From Pelomonas aquatica (GTDB taxonomy: Bacteria > Pseudomonadota > Gammaproteobacteria > Burkholderiales > Burkholderiaceae_C): a stretch of 64,000 bases of DNA. The stretch is taken from NCBI RefSeq assembly GCF_026712205.1, contig NZ_JAPPUW010000009.1, forward strand, positions 62,001-126,000. Direction: 5' to 3'. Both the position numbers and the translations under genes were made by a program. This document shows positions 16,652 through 45,511 of this stretch, piece after piece (the first letter of the stretch is position 1; each line of letters opens with the position of its first letter). Under the pieces are notes generated by a model. That model saw only the letters and a program-made list of their open reading frames with translations. It was not told the origin of the DNA and searched no databases.

Positions 16652-17803
16652 TTATTTCTCGATGGCGTAGCGGCCGTTCTTGGTCACGCTGACGATGGCG
16701 GTCTGCTCGGCGTCGTAGCCGGCCGGCTTGCCGGCCCTGTCCAGCGCGCGGCGGAAGCTGAAGCCGCCGGTGGCACCGGCCCACTTCACGGCGGGTAGCG
16801 CGTCGCGCAGCGCGGCACGGTCCTTGGCGAGGTCGCCGCTGAGCTTGACCTTCTTCAGCGCCTGGGCCGCGATGTACATCGCGTCATAGGCCTGGGCCGC
16901 GAACTGGTCGGGCGCGGCCTTGTGCTGCTTGGTGTAGGCGACGATGAAGGCGCCGTTCTCCTTGGTCTGGTTCTCTATGGACCAGGGGCTGCCGATCCAC
17001 AGGCCGTCGGAGGCGCCCTTGGCGAGATCGAAGACCTTGACCGAGTTCATGCCATTGCCGCCGATGACCGGCAGGTTCAGCCCCAGCTGGCGGGCCTGCA
17101 CCATGATGGGCGCGCCCTCGGCGATCAGCGCCGACAGCACCAGCGCGTCCGGCGCGCTGGCCTTGATCTTGGTCAGCTGGGCCTTGAAGTCGACGTCGCC
17201 CTTGGCGAAGGTCTCGGTCGTCGTGACGGCGATCTTCTGCGCCTCAAGCGCCTTCTTGAAGTTGTCGTAGCCGCTCTTCGTGAAGACGTCGTCGTTGCCG
17301 TAGAGCACCGCGACCTTCCTGATGCCCAGCTTCTTCACCGCGGTGGACAGCGTGACCGGCAGCACGTCGGCCTCGGTGACGGAGTTGCGGAAGACGTGGT
17401 CGCCGATGGCGGTGATGCCGTCGGCCGTGTTGGAGGTGCCGAAGACCACGGTCTTGGCGGCCTGCGCGATCGGGTCGGCGGCCTGCGCGGAATTGGACAG
17501 CGTGGGGCCGAACAGCATCAGCACCCTGTCCTGGAAGATCAGCTTCTTGAAGGCGTTGATCGCCTCTTCCTTCTTGCCCTGCTCGTCCTCGACGACCAGC
17601 ACCAGCTTGCTGCCGTTGATGCCGCCGGCCGCGTTGATCTCGTCGGCCGCGAGCTGGAAGCCGTTGCGGATGCTCTGGCCGTACTGCGCGGCACCGCCCG
17701 ACAAGGCCTCGGCCACACCCAGCCTGATGTCGGCGGCCTGGGCCACGCCGGCCAGCGCCATGAACGCGGCGACGGCGAGCGGCTTGAAGGTGCGAGTGAT
17801 CAT
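16652..17803 (-). CDS. ABC transporter substrate-binding protein, LivK type
   Basis: Periplasmic type-I binding protein, 383 residues. The signal peptide (about residues 1-23) ends ALAGVAQAADIRLG. The mature part starts with the family pattern IRLGVAEALSGGAAQYGQS and includes AADEINAAGGINGSKLVLVVEDEQ. AGGAG precedes the ATG. The ligand cannot be read from sequence: LivK relatives bind leucine, other amino acids, urea or aromatic compounds. It lies between pmbA (58 nt) and the livHMGF genes, separated from the latter by a terminator. Confidence 0.92.
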   Translation of the reverse strand: MITRTFKPLAVAAFMALAGVAQAADIRLGVAEALSGGAAQYGQSIRNGFQLAADEINAAGGINGSKLVLVVEDEQGKKEEAINAFKKLIFQDRVLMLFGPTLSNSAQAADPIAQAAKTVVFGTSNTADGITAIGDHVFRNSVTEADVLPVTLSTAVKKLGIRKVAVLYGNDDVFTKSGYDNFKKALEAQKIAVTTTETFAKGDVDFKAQLTKIKASAPDALVLSALIAEGAPIMVQARQLGLNLPVIGGNGMNSVKVFDLAKGASDGLWIGSPWSIENQTKENGAFIVAYTKQHKAAPDQFAAQAYDAMYIAAQALKKVKLSGDLAKDRAALRDALPAVKWAGATGGFSFRRALDRAGKPAGYDAEQTAIVSVTKNGRYAIEK

Positions 17804-35768: not shown

Positions 35769-36283
35769 GCCGACTCGTCACCTTGCTCGGTGCGGAATGC
35801 ACCGGCAAGTCCACGCTGGCCAAGGCGCTGGCCCGCGACCTCGGCGCCGGCCTCGTCACCGAATACCTGCGCGAATGGTGCGCCGCGCATGGCCGCACGC
35901 CGCAGCGGCAGGAGCAGGCCCACATCGCCGCCGAGCAGGCCGCGCGCATCGAGGCCGCGGCGCTCCGGCACGAGCTGGTGGTCTGCGACACCACGCCGCT
36001 GATCACGGCCCTGTGCAGCGAGCACTATTTTGGCGACGACTCGCTGACCGCCGCCGCCCTCGCCTTCCAGCGCCGCTGCGACCTGACGCTGCTGTGCGGG
36101 CCGGACCTGCCCTGGCAGGCCGACGGCTTCATGCGCGACGGCCCGGCCGTGCGCGCCGCCTTCGACGCGCGGCTGCGCGGCGTCATGCAGGCCCATGGCC
36201 TGGGCTGGATCGACATCACCGGCAATGACGCCGAGCGCCGCACCGCGGCCATCGCCGCGCTTCAGCGCCCCAGCAGCAGATAG
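35765..36283 (+). CDS. NadR-type nicotinamide riboside kinase (AAA ATPase domain only)
   Basis: A 172-residue P-loop kinase. Walker A is GAECTGKST (residues 9-17), followed by TEYLREWCAAHGR and the Walker B-like ELVVCDTTPLITALC. This matches the ribosylnicotinamide-kinase domain of NadR; the HTH and NMN-adenylyltransferase domains of E. coli NadR are absent. The start is TTG at 35765, inside the pnuC stop region. Phosphorylation would trap imported nicotinamide riboside as NMN. The 3' end overlaps the opposite-strand gene by 22 nt. Confidence 0.85.
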   Translation: MSRLVTLLGAECTGKSTLAKALARDLGAGLVTEYLREWCAAHGRTPQRQEQAHIAAEQAARIEAAALRHELVVCDTTPLITALCSEHYFGDDSLTAAALAFQRRCDLTLLCGPDLPWQADGFMRDGPAVRAAFDARLRGVMQAHGLGWIDITGNDAERRTAAIAALQRPSSR

Positions 36284-39200
36284 TCGAACAGCTGCGTGCC
36301 GCCGGCGCCGCCCAGCGGCACCAGCACGGCCTTCAGCAGCGGCTGCTCGAAGAAGGGCGCGAAGGCGCCGCGCTGCTCGTTCTCGACCTGGGCGATCAGC
36401 CGCTTGAAGGGCTCCTGCAGGCCCGACAGCGGCGCCGCGCTGCCGGCCAGCCAGCGCAGGTCGGCCTGCATGGACTCCAGCGCGCGTCGGCGTGCGTTCT
36501 CGGCCGCCTGCTTCAGCAGCAAGGTCAGGCCGACCAGCGCCGCGACGTAGAAGCTCACGCCGGCGGCGATGGCCGGCGTCAGCGACCAGTTGTCGAACAG
36601 CCGGCTGCGCGCGACGACGAGCAGGGCCAGCACGACGAAGGGCCCGATGACGAGGCGTGCGACCGGCGCGCTGCGGCGCGCCACGACCTGCACGTCGATC
36701 CAGTCGTCCAGCAGCGTGTGCCTCGTGAAGCCGCCGCCGTCCGCAACGCGCTCCTCGGGGCGGGCGCAGAAGCGCTGCGCCCACAGCCCCTTGTGCTCGC
36801 TGCCGAGCGCCTGGGCGAAGCCTTCGATGGTCGGGTCGGGGTAGAAGCTGCGCCCGACGTTCATGTGACGCACGAATCGGGTCAGCAGCACGGTCGCGTC
36901 GGCGACGGCCACGACCAGCAGCGGCAGCAGCAGCAGGGCCGCGTAGAGGGTCACGCGCACGAGGCCGCGGTGCTCGCTGCCGCGCGCCGGCACCTCGGGG
37001 ATCTGGCCGTCGTTCAGGCCGAGGAAGAGCAGTGTCACGACGCCCAGCGTCAGCGCATACCAGAACAGCGTGCGCGCCGCGCGCGGCGTGGCCTCGCCGC
37101 GCTCGCCGTATTCGATCCACAGCTGCCTGAAATCGCAGCTGTAGCCCACGCCCGGCTTCCAGAACAGCACGCTGACCTGCGAGAACCAGCCGCGCAGCAC
37201 CGCCACCACGCTGGGGTGCTCGGGCGGCCGTGGCAGGCACAGCCAGTCGGAATCGCGGCACAGCTGCTCCTGGGTGTCGGCCCAGGCCCAGTCCAGAGTC
37301 CACAGCAGCGTGAACAGGGCCAGCAGATGCAGCAGATGCGAGGGCCAGGAACTCACGCCCTCCAGCCAGACCGTGGGCTCGCAGGTCCGGCAGACGCCGC
37401 CCGGCCGCCAGCCGCCTTCCGGCCAGGCCAGGGCCAGCCACGCGGCGCCCAGCAGCGCCAGCCCCGTGGCGAGCAGCAGCGTCGGCCGGCGGGCCTGCCC
37501 GGTCTTGAGGCCCGCCAGCCCGACGAGCAGCGCCGCGCCGACAGCCAGCGCGGCCAGCATCGGCGTGCGGTTGAACTGCATGCGGCCCGGCAGCACGAAC
37601 TCGACGAGGCTGACCACGCCGTAGGACAGCAGCAGCGCATGCATGCTCACGAGCACGATGGCCGTCGGCTCCATGCGCAGGGCCGCCTCGCCGGGGCTAC
37701 GCGGCAGCAGCACACGCCGGGCCTGGCGCATCGCGGGCGTGGACGGCCAGCCGAACAGCAGGCAGCCGAACACCGCCGCCATCAGCAGCGCGACGAAGAT
37801 GCGCCCCGCCGCGCTCTGCGGCGGGCGCTCGTCCAGCGTGTAGCCCGACAGCGCCACCGTGCCGGAGCGCCCGATCTCGTAGACCGAGGTGTTCTTCAGC
37901 ACCGCGTCCAGCGCCCGGCCCTCGCGCTGCTTGCAGGCCTCGCTGCGGCAGCCGGCGCGGCGGGCGGCGGCATAGGTGCTGGTCTGGTAGATGTCGCGCA
38001 GCGGCGGCGTGCCGGCCTGCAGGTCCACGGCGCTGCCGGCCTTCTCGGGCGGCACCGGGTAGAAGGCCAGCGGCAGGCTGCTGGCGACGACGAGGTTGCG
38101 CGTGAAGGCCTGGGTGCGCGGGTGCAGATAGCGCGCGTCCATGTCGGTCGTGAAGAACACGCGGTCGGAGAAGTCCTCGTGCAGGGCCTGCAGCACCAGC
38201 AGCTTGTCGTGCACGTCGTTGGCGAAGATGCCGACGGCGCCGATGGGCAGGCTGCCGCTGCTGCTTTCGCTGCGCTTGAGCTCGGCGCCCAGCCGGCGCA
38301 GATAGTCCAGCTGGTCGCGGCTCTCGGGCCATTCCAGCGGCGGTACCTTGGCCGCGGCCGTGGCCAGCGCGGCGGCGGCGCTGGCCTCGGTCGTCGTCAC
38401 GCCGTCGATGCCGCGGAAAAAGTAGATGACGCGCAGGCTCTCCTTCAGCCCGGCGGGCAACTGGTCGCGGAACTGCTCCACCAGCGCCTGCGCGTAGATG
38501 GAATCGCGCTCGGCCACGATGACGACGCGGCGGTGCCGCTGCGGCAGGCGCAGCTTCAGCTCCGCCACCAGCTTGGCGATCAGGTCGGCATCGCTGCCCA
38601 CGGTGCGCACCATATGCACCGGCGGCGGCCTGCCCTGCGTGCCGGTGAGGCGGCTGAAGTGCTGGGTCAGGAAGGCGTCGATGCCGTCGTCCAGGCCGGT
38701 CACGGCGCGGGTGTAGCCCTGCAGCTCGGGCAGCATGCGCTCGGGCGCGGTGGACGAGGGGTTGTAGAACTCGGCGCGGGCCAGCAGCTGGTAGCCGGCC
38801 AGCACGTCGGCCGGCAGGCCGGCTCGGACGTCCTCGCCGCGGCGCAGGCAGCGCGCCGCGTCGCTCTCGGCCAGCGGGCTGCTGCCGATGCCGGCGGTGT
38901 TGTTCAGTTCGGCGGCGCAGCGCAGGTCGCGCAGCGCGGTGCGCAACGCATCGGTGGACGAGGGCCCGATGACGGCCAGCCGCGGCAGTGCGTCCTGGGC
39001 ATCGAGCTTGAAGCGCAGATGCGCGCGGTCGCGCGCCTCGCGGCCCATCAGCTGCTCGGCCAGCCGCGCCACGGCGTCCAGCTTGCGCAGCGGCAGCGCC
39101 GTCTCGTCCACCCACAGCAGCGCCACCTGGGCATAGCGCGACGGCGACTGCTCGCTGCCCGGGCGGCGCAGCGACAGCAGCTCGTAGGGCACCATATAGC

Positions 39201-39741
39201 CCGGGCTGCCGGTATCGGCCTTGGCGTCCAGCAGCCGGAACTCCAGCAGGCTCAGCCGCTCGGCGTTGTCGGGCACATAGTCCTGGGCCAGCAGGCCGGC
39301 CAGCGTCGCATAGCGGATGCGCCGGCGCGCCTCCTCGGCGCCGACGAAATCCGCGCCCGGCATCAGGCCCAGGATGACGAGGGTGTCGTCGAAGCGCTTG
39401 TTCTGGTCGGCGTCCAGCCGCGCCAGCAGGTTGCGCGGGTCGCGCAGCCGGGGCATCTGCTGGCCGCAGTCGCCGTCCACCGGCTGTGCGGCCTTGCGCT
39501 GACGCTCGCAGCGCTCGGATCGCTCCAGCTGGTAGCGGCGCAGCGCCGCAAAGGGGTCTTCCCAGAGCCGGGCGTTGATCTCGAGGTCGGGGTCCAGCGG
39601 CGCCTGGGCCCGCGCCTTCTCGGCCGGGCGCAGCGCGTCGAAGGCATGCGGCACGAGCTGGGTGCTGGCCACGAAGGCCATCAGCACCGCCAGGCTCGCC
39701 CACGGAAAGCTGCCGAGCACGCCGCCCTTGGAATCCGCCAT
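36262..39741 (-). CDS. Large membrane protein of unknown function
   Basis: Not recognised. This 1159-residue protein has one N-terminal membrane segment (about 12-32), then a roughly 600-residue soluble region. Part of that region (about 375-560) has alternating strand/helix segments such as RRVVIVAERDSIYAQALVEQF, GAVGIFANDVHDKLLVLQAL and RVFFTTDMDARYLHP, resembling a type-I periplasmic-binding-protein fold. From about 645 follow nine or so hydrophobic helices, and a cytosolic-looking tail (about 1078-1159). Paired Cys (599/603, 784/787) suggest disulfides. GC and codon use match its neighbours. A receptor-like role is inference only. Confidence 0.8.
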   Translation of the reverse strand: MADSKGGVLGSFPWASLAVLMAFVASTQLVPHAFDALRPAEKARAQAPLDPDLEINARLWEDPFAALRRYQLERSERCERQRKAAQPVDGDCGQQMPRLRDPRNLLARLDADQNKRFDDTLVILGLMPGADFVGAEEARRRIRYATLAGLLAQDYVPDNAERLSLLEFRLLDAKADTGSPGYMVPYELLSLRRPGSEQSPSRYAQVALLWVDETALPLRKLDAVARLAEQLMGREARDRAHLRFKLDAQDALPRLAVIGPSSTDALRTALRDLRCAAELNNTAGIGSSPLAESDAARCLRRGEDVRAGLPADVLAGYQLLARAEFYNPSSTAPERMLPELQGYTRAVTGLDDGIDAFLTQHFSRLTGTQGRPPPVHMVRTVGSDADLIAKLVAELKLRLPQRHRRVVIVAERDSIYAQALVEQFRDQLPAGLKESLRVIYFFRGIDGVTTTEASAAAALATAAAKVPPLEWPESRDQLDYLRRLGAELKRSESSSGSLPIGAVGIFANDVHDKLLVLQALHEDFSDRVFFTTDMDARYLHPRTQAFTRNLVVASSLPLAFYPVPPEKAGSAVDLQAGTPPLRDIYQTSTYAAARRAGCRSEACKQREGRALDAVLKNTSVYEIGRSGTVALSGYTLDERPPQSAAGRIFVALLMAAVFGCLLFGWPSTPAMRQARRVLLPRSPGEAALRMEPTAIVLVSMHALLLSYGVVSLVEFVLPGRMQFNRTPMLAALAVGAALLVGLAGLKTGQARRPTLLLATGLALLGAAWLALAWPEGGWRPGGVCRTCEPTVWLEGVSSWPSHLLHLLALFTLLWTLDWAWADTQEQLCRDSDWLCLPRPPEHPSVVAVLRGWFSQVSVLFWKPGVGYSCDFRQLWIEYGERGEATPRAARTLFWYALTLGVVTLLFLGLNDGQIPEVPARGSEHRGLVRVTLYAALLLLPLLVVAVADATVLLTRFVRHMNVGRSFYPDPTIEGFAQALGSEHKGLWAQRFCARPEERVADGGGFTRHTLLDDWIDVQVVARRSAPVARLVIGPFVVLALLVVARSRLFDNWSLTPAIAAGVSFYVAALVGLTLLLKQAAENARRRALESMQADLRWLAGSAAPLSGLQEPFKRLIAQVENEQRGAFAPFFEQPLLKAVLVPLGGAGGTQLFDYLLLGR

Positions 39742-39864
39742 CGCTGCCGCCTCCCGGCCCTTGCGAAAACAGGCCAGGCAGCAAAGCTCTCAGCTCGGCT
39801 CGTGGCCGTCAATCACCAGACCGGCGGACATCCTCAGAAGTCGGGATGCCCCGTTGCCGCGCGG

Positions 39865-40824
39865 CTACTGCAGCGTCGCGCTGGCGCCTTGCGGCTGGTC
39901 GTTGCCGGCGGTGAACAGCGCGCCGACGTCGACCGCGTCGAAGCGGTAGTGCCGGCCGCAGAAGTCGCAGCCGATCTCGATCTCGCCGCGCTCGGCCAGC
40001 ACGCCGTCGGCCTCCTCACGGCCCAGGCCGCGCAGCATCTGCGCGACGCGCTCGCGCGAGCAGGTGCAGGCGAAGCGCGTCCGCAGGGGCTCGAAGCGCG
40101 TCACCGTCTCCTCCCAGAACAGGCGGCGCAGGACGGTGTCGGCGTCCAGCGTCAGCAGTTCCTCGGAGGTCAGCGTGGACGCGAGCATGGCGATGCGGTT
40201 GAAGGCGTCGGACAGCCCGATGTCGTCTTCATTCCTTTTGCCTTCGAGGTTGCCCTCGCCCTCGACCGGCAGGCGCTGTATCAGCAGGCCAGCGGCGATG
40301 TCGCCGCTGGCGGCCAGCACCAGCCGGGTGTCGAGCTGCTCGGACTGCAGCATGTAGTGCTCCAGCACCTCGCTCATCTTCTGCAGCGGCTCACGCTGGT
40401 CGCCGTGCAGCGGCACGACGCCCTGGTAGGGTTGCTGGCCGGGCAGCTTGTCGCGCGGGTCCAGCGTGATCGCGCAGCGGCCCTTGCCGTGCACGTTCAG
40501 CATGCCCTCCAGCGTCGCGCCGGCCGGGATCTCGCCGACGCATTTGGCCGTGGTCCGGAAGCTCAGGTCGTGCTGGGCCTCGGCCACGGCGAGCTTGACC
40601 GGGCCGTCGCCGAAGACCTGCAGCACCAGCGCGCCGTTGAACTTGATGTTGGCCTGCATCAGCACGGCCGCGGCGCTCATCTGGCCGAGCAGGTCGCGCA
40701 GCTCGGGCGGGTATTCATGGCCGGCCTCGCGGCGGCTCAGCAGCTCGCGCCAGGACTCCGTCAGGCGCACCAGCATGCCGCGCACGGGCAGGCCTTCGAA
40801 CAGAAATTTGTGCAGTTCACTCAT
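39865..40824 (-). CDS. hslO: Redox-regulated chaperone Hsp33
   Basis: Cytoplasmic holdase activated by oxidative unfolding. It has 319 residues. The C-terminal zinc switch is Cys253-x-Cys255 and Cys286-x2-Cys289 (CTC and CDFC), with the expected 30-residue spacing. The N-terminal domain shows [21 protein letters not shown]. The ATG overlaps the preceding gene stop by 8 nt, so it is translated from the gamma-carbonic-anhydrase-like transcript. Confidence 0.95.
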
Positions 40825-42310: not shown

Positions 42311-42330
42311 CCGCCGGGATAATCCCGGGC

Positions 42331-42592
42331 ATGGAAGCCCGTGCCCGCGCCCTGCAGATCCTCGCCCTGACCGACCCGCTGGCCAAGGCGGCGGCCGCCC
42401 GGGCGCTGGACGAGGCGGCGCCTCTCGATCCCGATGCCATCCTGGCCGAGCCCGCCGGCATTCCGGGCCGGCCCGAGCGGCCGCTGCTGGTCGGGCACCT
42501 CCAGCTCAAGCCGCCGTCGATGCGCACGCCGGCCGGCATCGCGGCCCTGGTGCATGCCATCGCCCACATCGAGTTCAACGCCATCAAGACCA
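42331..42592 (+). pseudogene. Truncated DUF455 ferritin-like gene (5' fragment)
   Basis: The first 87 codons encode a DUF455 N-terminus (MEARARALQILALTDPLAKA ... LAEPAGIPGRPERPLLV ... HAIAHIEFNAI). Homology stops abruptly at the conserved HIEFNAI motif, where the intact family continues N-L-A-L-D. The frame then runs into unrelated sequence and the insertion sequence. The helices with the remaining ligands are gone, so it should be non-functional. A complete paralogue lies 2.1 kb downstream. Confidence 0.8.
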
Positions 42593-42610
42593 GTTTAATG
42601 ATTGACAAAA

Positions 42611-43761
42611 GGGCACTTCTCGAAACCTCCCTCACGCCTGACAGGCTGATCGGGCACGATGTGGGCCATGAACACGCCGCGCATCAAGCCCTCGACGTTC
42701 TGGCGCCGCCAGCCCTCGACGGACCTGTTCGTGCAGGAGCAGCGCCAGGACAAGATGGGCGGCTTCATCGCCAACCTGGCGGCGATGGACGAGTTGATCG
42801 ACTTCGCGGCCATTGCGGCCCAGGTGGACAGCGCCTGCCCGCGGCCCGATCGCAGCAAGGGCGGTCGCCCGCCGTACCCCACCGAGATCATGGTGCGGCT
42901 GCTGTTCATCCAGTCGCTGTACAACCTCTCGGACGAATACTGCGAGTACCAGGTGCTGGACCGCATGAGCTTCCAGCACTTCTGCCGGCTCGATGGGATG
43001 CTGCACATCCCGGATGCGCGCACGCTGTGGCACTTCAAGCAGCACCTGGCCCAAGGCGGGCTGGGCGGGCGGGCCATCTTCGATGCGGTGAGCCAACAGC
43101 TCCAGGCCCACGGCTACATCCCGCGTGGCGGGCAGATCGTGGACGCCAGCATCGTGCAGGCGCCGGTCACCCAGGCCAAGAGCGAAGAGCGGGAAGCCCT
43201 CAACGAGGGGAAGCCTCCCGAAGGCTGGTCATCCAAGCGGGTGCGCCACACCGACCGCGATGCGCGCTGGACCAAGAAGCACGGCAAGAGCTACTACGGC
43301 TACAAGGTCCATGCCAACAGCGACGCGCGCTACAAGCTGATCCGCAAGCTCAAGGTGACGCCAGCCAACGTGGACGACGGCCAGACCTTGGCGGACGTGC
43401 TGGACGCGAGCAACACCGGCAAACGCGCGCGGGGCGAGCATGTGTTCGCGGGGCTGGAACAACTGGGTGGCAAGTGCGTGCGGGCACTGACGCTGGCCAG
43501 GAACGAACTGGCGATCCTGCTCAAGTGCTCGGCCTACAACGTCAAGCGACTGGTCTGGCTGGTGGGCAACGACCCACTGCCCTGGGCGCGCTGAGGGGCG
43601 AGGTGCGTCCGCGGAGCCCGAAAACGGGGTTGTGCAGGGCTCTGGCCACCGACGAAGACCGCCCCGGCGCGCTTGTGGTGCTGCCGAAACCCCTGAACCG
43701 GCCACTGCGGGCGGTCTCACGTCGGATCAGCCGGAGAAAACGGGGGTTATGCGAAGTGCCC
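42611..43761 (+). mobile_element. IS5-family insertion sequence
   Basis: A 1151-bp element bounded by imperfect inverted repeats. The left end starts GGGCACTTCTCGAAACC, and the reverse complement of the right end starts GGGCACTTCGCATAACC. The 4-bp sequence AAAA flanks both ends (42607-42610 and 43762-43765), consistent with the 4-bp duplication of IS5-type elements. It encodes one transposase, which carries an internal deletion. The element inserted into DNA that already separated the two DUF455 genes. Confidence 0.85.
42659..43594 (+). CDS. IS5-family transposase, internally deleted
   Basis: A 311-residue DDE transposase (DUF772 N-domain: RPDRSKGGRPPYPTEIMVR, SDEYCEYQVLDRMSFQHFC). The first catalytic Asp is in GGQIVDASIVQAP, and the Glu region is RARGEHVFAGLEQLGGK. 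In the family about 45-55 residues with the second Asp (a YADxGY-like motif) lie between these; here ADVLDASNTG joins directly to KRARGEHVF. The deletion is in frame but removes a catalytic residue, so the enzyme is probably inactive. An ATG four codons in is an alternative start. Confidence 0.85.
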   Translation: MWAMNTPRIKPSTFWRRQPSTDLFVQEQRQDKMGGFIANLAAMDELIDFAAIAAQVDSACPRPDRSKGGRPPYPTEIMVRLLFIQSLYNLSDEYCEYQVLDRMSFQHFCRLDGMLHIPDARTLWHFKQHLAQGGLGGRAIFDAVSQQLQAHGYIPRGGQIVDASIVQAPVTQAKSEEREALNEGKPPEGWSSKRVRHTDRDARWTKKHGKSYYGYKVHANSDARYKLIRKLKVTPANVDDGQTLADVLDASNTGKRARGEHVFAGLEQLGGKCVRALTLARNELAILLKCSAYNVKRLVWLVGNDPLPWAR

Positions 43762-43811
43762 AAAAGGGTCACCGGGATTAACGTGAGCAAACTGGCATAG
43801 AGGGAGCTGCG

Positions 43812-44639
43812 ATGGATTTCCTGGCAATGGCGTTTGGAAGTGCGCTTGCTGAGTCTGCGATCTTCTTTCCGATCACATATCTCGCGCTCGCCAAGCAGCT
43901 CAACCTTGAACCGCTGCGCGCAGCGTGGCGCCCGTGGGGCTCCTACGTCGTGGTGCGCACCATCGTTGTGATGCTATTCGGCGTGCCCACGACTAACTCC
44001 GTCTCGGGAGTCGTGTCGGTATTCTTTGTCCCAATTTTTGTCGCCTCCCTCGTCCTTCTCGTTTGGTCGCGGTTGGGTCAAGTCTCTGGGTCAACAAAAC
44101 CTAAACCAGCGTCTTCGCCAGAAAGGTCGGCTGACCACCAGGGCGACTTTGTCGTGGATGCAGAGCAGCGGAAGCTCAATGTGAAGCGAGGGCTGTTGCG
44201 CCTCTGGCTCGTTGGGGCGGTGACCTGGATAGTGGGTCTCGCCGCGATTGATGGTGTCCCCGAAAAGATCGTATACGCGCGGCGATACCACGCTAACTAT
44301 GCGGCCCTAAAGGCAGAACAAGACGGCCTCGATAGTCTGGCGGCGACAACCCGCCCGCCAACTCTCGCGGAAGCGCAGTGCGAGCAGCAAGAGCGGGCTC
44401 GAAGCGCCAAGAGTCCAGCTTTGCCCAGCAGCGACTCAAATCCCTACGCCGCGTTCGCCGCTGACTACGTAATCGAACAAAAGTGCAGAGTGATCGTTCA
44501 TCACAAACCTGCCCTCCCGGACTGGTCATGGCTAGTGCCCGTGTTCGTCCCTCCAACGATTGGAGTTCTCGCCATGTTCATCGCCGGCTGGTTCGTTGCG
44601 CGTATATCGCGATGGGTTTGGCGTGGCTTTTCGAGCTAG
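43812..44639 (+). CDS. Orphan membrane protein of lower GC, probable transferred gene
   Basis: Not recognised. This 275-residue protein has two or three N-terminal hydrophobic segments (about 8-28, 44-62, 66-86), a helix at about 133-150, a soluble Ala/Gln/Glu-rich stretch (155-235, with Cys residues at about 193 and 220) and a C-terminal helix (about 243-265). GGGAG precedes the ATG. Base composition and codon choice (gat, ttt, gtt, ata-type codons) are visibly less GC-biased than in its neighbours, and it lies between an IS element and a DUF455 copy, so horizontal acquisition is likely. Confidence 0.7.
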   Translation: MDFLAMAFGSALAESAIFFPITYLALAKQLNLEPLRAAWRPWGSYVVVRTIVVMLFGVPTTNSVSGVVSVFFVPIFVASLVLLVWSRLGQVSGSTKPKPASSPERSADHQGDFVVDAEQRKLNVKRGLLRLWLVGAVTWIVGLAAIDGVPEKIVYARRYHANYAALKAEQDGLDSLAATTRPPTLAEAQCEQQERARSAKSPALPSSDSNPYAAFAADYVIEQKCRVIVHHKPALPDWSWLVPVFVPPTIGVLAMFIAGWFVARISRWVWRGFSS

Positions 44640-44710
44640 GAAGTGCCGGTTCCGTTAGGGTGCACTGGCATGGCAGGCCGGTTGTGATCAAGTCCGTCAA
44701 AATTTTAGAA

Positions 44711-45511
44711 ATGGAACTCAGACATGGCTGCCTGCAGGCCTTAGCCCTGCCCGGCACGAGCGACAAGCTGGCCGCCGTGGCAGCCCTGTGGGCGGCGCGC
44801 GAGACGCTCGCGACCCATGCCGATGCCCGGCTCGCAGCCCAGCCCGATTTGCCCGCCCTGCCCGGCCGCCCACCCCTGCCGCGGCTGGTGGACCCAAGCG
44901 CAGTACCACAGCGCTCGCCCTTCACAGACGAAGGCCGCGCCGCGCTGCTGCACGCCATCGCGCACATCGAGTTCAATGCGATCAACCTGGCCCTGGACGT
45001 CGCCTGGCGCTTCGCCGGCATGCCGGCCGCCTTCTACCGCGACTGGCTGCGCATCGCCGCCGAGGAGGCCCTGCACTTCACGCTGCTGCGCGAGCATCTG
45101 CTGACCCTGGGCTTCGACTACGGCGACTTCGACGCCCACAACGCGCTGTGGGACATGGCCGAGCGCACGCGCCACGACCTGCTGGCCCGCATCGCCCTGG
45201 TGCCGCGCACGCTGGAGGCCCGCGGCCTGGACGCCTCGCCGGCCGTCAAGCGCAAGCTGGTCGGCGCCGGCGACCTGCGCGCCGGCGAGATCCTGGACCT
45301 CATCCTGCGCGACGAGATCGGCCATGTGGCGGCCGGCAACCGCTGGTACCGCTTCGTCTGCGGGCAGCGCGGCCTGGACCCCGTCGCCACCTATGCCGAG
45401 CTGGCCGCCCGCTACCAGGCGCCCAAGCTGCGCGCCCCCTTCAACCTCGAAGCCCGCCGCGCCGCCGGTTTCGACGAGGCCGAACTGGCCGCCTTGCAGC
45501 GGGCCTGCTGA
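44711..45511 (+). CDS. DUF455 family ferritin-like protein
   Basis: This 266-residue member of the DUF455 ferritin-like family is predicted to be a four-helix bundle with a di-metal site. Ligand-type motifs are HAIAHIEFNAINLALD, AAEEALHFTLLREHL and RDEIGHVAAGNRWY. The family occurs near tRNA-hydroxylase-like (MiaE-type) proteins in fold space, but its reaction is not known. The ATG at 44711 gives MELRHGCLQALALPG, the normal N-terminus; the frame upstream overlaps the low-GC gene. It is the intact relative of the fragment at 42331 (about one third identical over the shared N-terminus). Confidence 0.85.
   Translation: MELRHGCLQALALPGTSDKLAAVAALWAARETLATHADARLAAQPDLPALPGRPPLPRLVDPSAVPQRSPFTDEGRAALLHAIAHIEFNAINLALDVAWRFAGMPAAFYRDWLRIAAEEALHFTLLREHLLTLGFDYGDFDAHNALWDMAERTRHDLLARIALVPRTLEARGLDASPAVKRKLVGAGDLRAGEILDLILRDEIGHVAAGNRWYRFVCGQRGLDPVATYAELAARYQAPKLRAPFNLEARRAAGFDEAELAALQRAC

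Follow-up and report, generated by a model that had tools for sequence, protein, structure and literature searches.

The type-I periplasmic-binding fold, or Venus flytrap, occurs in binding proteins such as LIVBP/LivK (Peripla_BP_6) and, as an extracellular domain followed by a membrane part, in the class C G-protein-coupled receptors (GPCRs; mGlu and GABA-B) and the natriuretic-peptide receptor. Flytrap-bearing receptors are already known, and so are bacterial channels of the Cys-loop type with a fused type-I periplasmic-binding (PBP-I) domain, described in passages of PMC549065. The insect odorant and gustatory receptors (ORs and GRs) are seven-transmembrane (7TM) ion channels (7TMICs), which bind their ligands within the membrane domain according to the sections of PMC11100771 on these receptors. 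In the relevant part of a review (PMC11526382), 7TMICs are treated as an ancient superfamily and evidence is cited for a transfer from eukaryotes to prokaryotes; passages of a paper of 2020 (PMC7746228) report that no members of the 7TM channel superfamily were found in bacteria. We here describe a gene at positions 36262-39741 of a 64,000-nucleotide stretch of Pelomonas aquatica (contig NZ_JAPPUW010000009.1, positions 62,001 to 126,000; hereafter the window). Its product of 1159 amino acids joins a flytrap to a membrane half whose predicted helix arrangement resembles that of insect ORs and GRs. Our full-text literature search, which had most subscription papers outside its scope, recognised no description of this family or of a flytrap combined with an insect-receptor-like membrane domain. 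Himmel et al. 2023 reportedly deals with prokaryotic 7TMICs, and the family may already be present, unnamed, in those data.

With LIVBP/LivK, the protein shares a two-lobed fold and a colinear profile match, but it is anchored in the membrane at both ends and carries long insertions, and Pfam gives no match for it. As in class C GPCRs and the natriuretic-peptide receptor, a flytrap outside the cell membrane precedes a membrane part; unlike these receptors, the family has one more helix ahead of the flytrap and a membrane domain of inverted topology by the charge rule. The PBP-I Cys-loop fusions also place a type-I binding domain on a predicted bacterial ligand-gated channel, albeit one whose channel domain is unrelated, as far as the passages on them go. 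The likeness to insect ORs and GRs lies in the modelled helix order, the lengths of S6, S7a and S7b, the N-in topology predicted from charge, the long cytosolic loops and the top rows of the fold comparisons, whereas a sequence match and the motif TYhhhhhQF are lacking, S4 and S5 are shorter and a flytrap is fused. Taking the reading as a whole, we tentatively regard the protein, at somewhat less than an even chance, as an inner-membrane ligand-gated, channel-like receptor composed of a flytrap and an insect-OR/GR-like membrane domain.

The protein and its flytrap

The open reading frame (ORF) is intact over 1159 codons; a stop in the same frame lies 17 codons ahead of the ATG, and a ribosome-binding-like GGGAGG 8 nucleotides before it (39750..39755). 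The first-pass annotation of this DNA had not given the strand; ORF calling places the gene on the minus strand, as it does all of its features below. Judged from the relatives encoded at 19 loci, the ORF is a conserved protein rather than a chance ORF, and it occurs in one copy in its own genome. Scans of Pfam and NCBIfam leave the protein unnamed, as the first-pass annotation had it: searches of Pfam (at E <= 10) and of PDB sequences gave no match, and the NCBIfam model SLATT scored 11.8 bits, below its cut-off of 41. A SLATT effector/pore domain was dropped as a candidate, this sub-threshold score being the only one among 24 members. No PADLOC model of a known defence system matched the window protein or two of its relatives. 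As the Pfam and NCBIfam scans revealed neither a signalling nor an enzyme domain in the window protein, an output via the membrane domain would be the economical reading.

The computed order of the parts is as follows. A single N-terminal membrane segment (residues ~14-32; 39646..39702), which can be seen in the sequence and aligns among the relatives, is predicted to run from inside to outside and precedes a soluble half of ~615 residues. A tether helix then leaves the flytrap from outside to inside, as judged by hydropathy and loop charges (residues 648-666; 37744..37800), and leads to the membrane domain (residues 695-1159; 36265..37659). A simple hydropathy scan gives nine hydrophobic segments after the soluble half. 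The single N-terminal segment, about 600 soluble residues and about nine helices claimed in the first-pass annotation are thereby borne out. On the other hand, what it took for a cytosolic tail most likely comprises one helix in the cytosol and a final one in the membrane, which would bring the C-terminus into the periplasm; the scan scored this further segment in 26 of 38 members and missed it in that of the window.

The soluble half is, to judge from its predicted structure, near certainly a two-lobed type-I periplasmic-binding domain with both lobes present (residues ~119-635; 37837..39387). AlphaFold2, run on residues 32-655 with an alignment of 19 rows, yielded a model with a predicted local distance difference test (pLDDT) of 71.4 and a predicted template-modelling score (pTM) of 0.76, for which Foldseek found 132 PDB matches at E <= 0.001. 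Leu-type binding proteins led these matches (4q6b, 6.8e-8). By title, the best 50 of the 132 were type-I binding proteins, sensors built on such proteins, LpoA and eukaryotic receptors with the domain, and the lower matches included mGlu, GABA-B, sweet-taste and natriuretic-peptide receptors as well as LpoA. In the VIA comparison, residues 88-600 of the model (119-631 of the protein) matched 4m88 with a Z of 17.2 and a root-mean-square deviation (rmsd) of 3.8 over 306 aligned residues. Homology was computed free of structure prediction by hhalign, in which a profile of 38 family rows was compared with 12 Leu/Ile/Val-type binding-protein ORFs of the same genome; the two aligned colinearly over 277 columns with a P of 1.9e-5 and a probability of 77.5%, while the reversed family profile, used as a control, gave a P of 0.77. 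The template is imperfect, as a number of its 12 ORFs seem to be miscalled. No type-I binding family was found among 25 of the 32 Pfam families listed for 24 members; Pfam models miss some members of a fold, so that the absent match limits the naming of the domain and not its fold. The first-pass annotation had rightly suspected the type-I fold, albeit over residues 375-560, which roughly cover the later part of the domain. The fold search that it named as a check and the profile alignment both agree with the binding-protein fold, and no other fold or enzyme family, which by its own terms would have refuted the receptor idea, competes among the best 50 Foldseek matches or the VIA rows listed.

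Nineteen positions are identical in all 37 rows of the alignment. Fifteen of them are polar or charged (E137, R139, R143, E187, E394, Q477, D479, Y480, D509, D512, K513, T532, N549, R582 and E622), a pattern that would fit a polar ligand or a charged interface between the lobes. The motif IGPSS in a loop of lobe 1 (residues 258-262; 38956..38970), with G259 conserved at 97% and P260 in 37 of 37 rows, aligns in hhalign with the corresponding loop of the binding proteins of the same genome, and is a putative ligand loop. In lobe 2, ANDVHDK (residues 507-513; 38203..38223) contributes D509, D512 and K513. We infer that the flytrap senses a ligand. A Peripla_BP_6-type search of the genome gave 12 matches, one of which is the substrate-binding protein gene at 16736-17728 of the window (minus strand).

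The membrane half and its likeness to insect receptors

The AlphaFold2 model of residues 641-1159 (pLDDT 75.2, pTM 0.77) was searched in the same ways. Foldseek ranked Gr43a first (E 0.11, probability 0.91), and insect ORs and GRs occupied 9 of the 11 top rows. The first 15 rows of VIA were all insect ORs or GRs with Z of 8.2-9.8, 246-298 aligned residues and rmsd of 5.7-7.1 (the best row: 298 aligned, rmsd 6.1), followed in row 16 by a designed nanopore (Z 8.1). The model contains an S6-like helix of 45 residues (1056-1100, model 416-460; 36442..36576), an S7a-like cytosolic helix of 16 (1105-1120, model 465-480; 36382..36429) and, after a gap of 13, an S7b-like C-terminal helix of ~25 residues (1134-1158, model helices 494-503 and 506-518; 36268..36342), which is a putative pore helix of low confidence. 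The sections of PMC11100771 on the two receptors give 45, 15 and 21 residues with a gap of 14 for BmGr9 and 45, 15 and 25 with a gap of 13 for MhOr5.

The topology was computed from loop charges and hydropathy in 38 members, which alternate in the positive-inside manner and assign the membrane domain an N-in, inverted orientation by the charge rule. In a typical distant member the flytrap is followed by eight segments, namely the tether helix plus seven, and in typical relatives three basic cytosolic core loops of ~40-115 residues alternate with three periplasmic loops of ~4-26. Per member, the count after the flytrap was seven in 10, eight in 12, nine in 6, ten in 9 and five in 1, and it varies with the chosen hydropathy cut-off. 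An inverted topology and cytosolic loops longer than the extracellular ones serve as criteria for the 7TM superfamily in passages of PMC7746228; on the topology predicted from charge, the cytosolic loops of this family are indeed the longer ones.

A number of observations weigh against the channel-like reading. Foldseek found no PDB match for the membrane half at E <= 0.001, and the last 26 residues of the model, which form S7b, fall below a pLDDT of 50. A VIA Z under ~13 may reflect a mere common arrangement in helical models, and the 15 top receptors are related to one another and do not amount to 15 separate pieces of evidence; the resemblance to insect receptors is therefore a lead. S4 and S5 of the model measure 39 and 37 residues, as compared to 52-54 in ORs and GRs. 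The window member and its clade carry two extra membrane helices, which leave the parity of the topology unchanged. The motif TYhhhhhQF, which marks S7b of gustatory receptors in the passages of PMC11100771 on them, is absent from the conserved C-terminal segment of the family.

The sequence tests point the same way. A profile of 24 rows matched OR10 at E 0.14, colinearly over S4-S6, as one of seven matches at E <= 10, the six others being designed proteins or bacteriorhodopsin-like chains. OR10 was not matched by the membrane-half profiles of 20 or 38 rows, and hhalign against OR segments gave a P of 0.25 as compared to 0.48 for the reversed control; we thus keep the OR10 match as a weak note and not as evidence of homology. 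The Pfam gustatory-receptor model (7tm_7) matched 2 of 38 members at E <= 10 (best E 0.082), and in the same search DUF4381 matched 3 (among 25 of the 47 families listed). In a control search of 25 whole genomes, 7tm_7 picked up the family locus in just one, as one of 18 weak matches. With equal or better weak matches elsewhere in these genomes, 7tm_7 was dropped as proof of homology. No GPCR family was found among the Pfam families listed for the members. As the sequence tests did not confirm kinship, we claim a resemblance and not membership in the superfamily; a 7TM-channel fold of the membrane half is only suggested by the models.

The location of conservation in the membrane half was computed over segments set by hand, at the 75% level in 37 rows. 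In the periplasmic loops EL1-EL3, 15 of 62 positions are conserved, in the cytosolic loops 10 of 227 and in the helices 13 of 207; columns filled in <70% of the rows, such as those of the extra helices, cannot score, and the short periplasmic loop in the extra-helix region of the window protein has 0 of 13. EL1 contributes 6 of 30 positions with EP.....GVSSWP (residues 788-800; 37342..37380), EL2 4 of 18 with P..P.RG (915-921; 36979..36999) and EL3 5 of 14 with ARSRLFDNW (1044-1052; 36586..36612). The concentration in EL1-EL3 is what a flytrap acting on the periplasmic face of the membrane domain would lead one to expect, and the pattern of loop conservation would disfavour a strongly conserved docking site in the cytosol.

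We propose the following mechanism for the channel-like receptor. The first helix would send the chain out, placing the flytrap in the periplasm, where it would close, probably on a small polar ligand. The tether helix would bring the chain back to the cytoplasm, and a core of seven helices would follow, comprising S1-S6, the cytosolic S7a and the C-terminal S7b in the arrangement of insect OR/GR channels. Closure may then pull on EL1-EL3, and this pull may move S7b and open an oligomeric pore for an ion flux; gating, oligomer, ions, ligand and channel activity are all suppositions of this scheme. If it holds, a bacterial flytrap on an insect-type channel would offer a simple, expressible model for the gating of a channel fold by a flytrap, and would give a name to a conserved family left unnamed by the two domain databases. 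Receptors combining a flytrap with a membrane part are central in animal neurotransmission, and the prokaryotic past of the insect chemoreceptor channels is obscure. The first-pass annotation is silent on the likeness of the membrane half to insect chemoreceptors, as well as on the hydrolase neighbours of relatives described below.

Hydrolase neighbours and alternative explanations

The main rival explanation is a flytrap sensor devoid of a pore, in which closure is passed via the helices to cytosolic partners (patatin, lipase, amidase) that are held or regulated. We consider it rather unlikely, and its case comes from the neighbours of distant relatives. In 12 of the 30 full-length distant loci fetched, the nearest same-strand upstream gene, 2-246 nucleotides away, encodes a hydrolase or hydrolase-like protein (L060-L063, L070, L090, L098-L102 and L104); this is not a census because only 40 neighbour proteins, one of them a family fragment, were scanned with Pfam, the remaining neighbours being named by eye or unjudged. 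The linked enzymes include, by Pfam, patatin, class-3 lipase, Amidase_2, Tle1-like lipase and papain-like protease; a peptidoglycan-binding protein with a sub-threshold GH19, a sub-threshold PGAP1-like protein, an LCAT-like protein (slightly below the cut-off) with TPR-S, and in L102 an alpha-amylase adjoining the receptor gene complete the set. The cargo differs even among close relatives, with a PGAP1-like protein in L099 and a lipase and a patatin in L098 and L100 (the lipase of L100 was named by eye; both patatins come from a patatin search); the set of L098 includes an amidase as well. A patatin lies within 6 kb in 8 of 31 loci as compared to 0.42 expected from genome counts (Poisson 1.7e-8, for loci that are not independent), or in 3 of 16 when collapsed to genera (P 0.0012); of the 8 patatin matches in the own genome, none lies on the contig of the receptor gene. 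On a quick tree of 37 rows, from which L100 was left out and in which long branches make parts unsure, 6 changes of the linkage label are required (at least 5 if well-supported branches alone are counted), and the label is clustered, with a number this low in 1 of 500 shuffles.

Against the pore-less sensor, the clade of the window (8 rows) keeps the same protein with no such neighbour seen, its unlinked label being set by default for unscanned loci, and the cytosolic loops are poorly conserved. The flanking genes of close relatives mainly cluster with those of the window and represent ordinary synteny, beyond which no partner gene was seen for this clade. Thus, the statement in the first-pass annotation that no partner adjoins the gene stands for the window and fails for many of the distant relatives, and the neighbourhood check it proposed came out differently for close and distant homologues.

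The channel-like receptor can also be joined to these neighbours in a broader proposal. The family would be a bacterial ligand-gated channel uniting a glutamate-receptor-type flytrap with an insect-chemoreceptor-type fold, and its operon form would act as the trigger of a device for envelope lysis or conflict. On a signal in the periplasm, the channel would open and set free the cytosolic phospholipases and peptidoglycan amidases encoded alongside it; lineages like that of the window would keep the sensor alone. This proposal in its entirety is unlikely. Most partner enzymes have no clear signal peptide in their N-termini (judged by eye, without a signal-peptide program), and TssK (PF05936) was found in 8 of 27 genomes including the own genome and in only 1 of the 10 hydrolase-linked genomes (G088), most of which are drafts; these two findings leave room for an envelope-lysis trigger. 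The passages of PMC7159879, a paper on conflict systems, place membrane helices and a PBP domain in one variable region and mention neither TPR-S nor patatin. The hydrolase neighbours hint at a possible bacterial coupling of an outside signal to damage of the own or a foreign envelope.

A one-chain importer, in which a binding protein is fused to a permease for ligand uptake, is decidedly unlikely. Type-I binding proteins classically feed transporters, and the flytrap is tethered beside many helices; nevertheless, no ABC, TRAP or secondary transporter stood above the insect channels among the rows listed, where such lists cannot exclude one, and no ATPase neighbour recurs. A single ABC-type ATPase was noted by eye near the relative in L091, on the opposite strand.

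A further idea is that the family confers immunity to, or is an accessory of, type VI effectors of the Tle1-like and amidase kinds seen beside relatives. This would accord with the Tle1-like catalytic domain (PF09994) adjoining the family gene in L063 and with the N-termini of most partner enzymes, in which no clear signal peptide was seen by eye. The scarcity of TssK in the hydrolase-linked genomes, mostly drafts, speaks against this idea, in a survey that did not include VgrG, and we rate it as very improbable. A type VI effector context was set aside for the same reason.

Least probable of all is an LpoA-like regulator of cell-wall synthesis with a flytrap for protein contact instead of a ligand: LpoA (5vbg) is the rank 9 fold match and amidase and lysozyme-like neighbours occur in relatives, but LpoA ranks amid general type-I folds and so bears no special likeness, and it is not known to have a multi-helix membrane half.

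Distribution of the family and flanking genes

One scan of genome contigs identified the 19 loci, whose products are 40-89% identical to the window protein. The closest (61-89%) are of Roseateles/Pelomonas and nearby metagenome-assembled genomes (MAGs), with the orthologue of Roseateles saccharophilus DSM 654 (L001) at 89%, and a tier of 40-46% comprises Variovorax, Limnobacter, Rubrivivax and MAGs. A profile built from the 19 loci retrieved more distant full-length relatives of ~957-1352 amino acids; with it, 14 of 300 genomes sampled from the order and 6 of 398 from the phylum were carriers, and a wider profile found 11 of 369 genomes of the class, with some of the class matches being fragments. 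The own genome is counted in each tally and the samples overlap. Around four carriers, which are themselves counted, 3 of 61, 7 of 100, 2 of 3 and 3 of 74 genomes had a family member. Altogether, the distribution of the family is very patchy. No tblastn match of the window protein (E 1e-5) was found in 72,556 plasmid records or 50,697 phage records, and none of 17 pattern matches in viral contigs was confirmed; carriage by phages, plasmids or viruses was set aside on these grounds.

Several relatives deviate from the common form. L064 (780-5601) holds a tandem pair of family genes, the second of which is cut by the contig end. Stand-alone C-terminal pieces of 133 and 155 amino acids occur in L095 (9473-9874) and L096 (5864-6331), with transposase-like genes near one of them (by eye), and are either decayed copies or a separate small protein. 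In the alignment, the first helix of the 1352-residue member of L070 (8263-12321) is followed by a long insertion of charged, coiled-coil-like character, which is probably the source of the SMC/Rad50-type matches of a single member. In L102 (2341-8513), the genes upstream of the family member form an operon-like series (papain-like protease, patatin, DUF4231/SLATT-like protein, Amidase_2, alpha-amylase); the DUF4231 protein matched the PADLOC model RTasSLATT (E 3.7e-4).

In the window, an hslO/Hsp33-like gene (39865..40824, minus strand) lies directly upstream of the receptor gene on the same strand with a gap of 123 nucleotides. It comes from the ORF table and shares a sequence cluster with a Pfam HSP33 protein of L059 (8159-12617), where the Hsp33 gene is likewise directly upstream of the family gene though in a different bacterial family; the adjacency may be an old linkage. 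The receptor gene also faces a pnuC/nadR-like pair (by eye). Further along, at ~42330-45511, a short fragment of a ferritin-like/DUF455-type ORF is followed by an IS5-like transposase ORF (42659-43594), and another, longer ferritin-like/DUF455-type ORF stands at 44483-45511 with a membrane-protein ORF in between (names by eye); it looks as if the IS5-like insertion broke one copy of the ferritin-like/DUF455-type gene.

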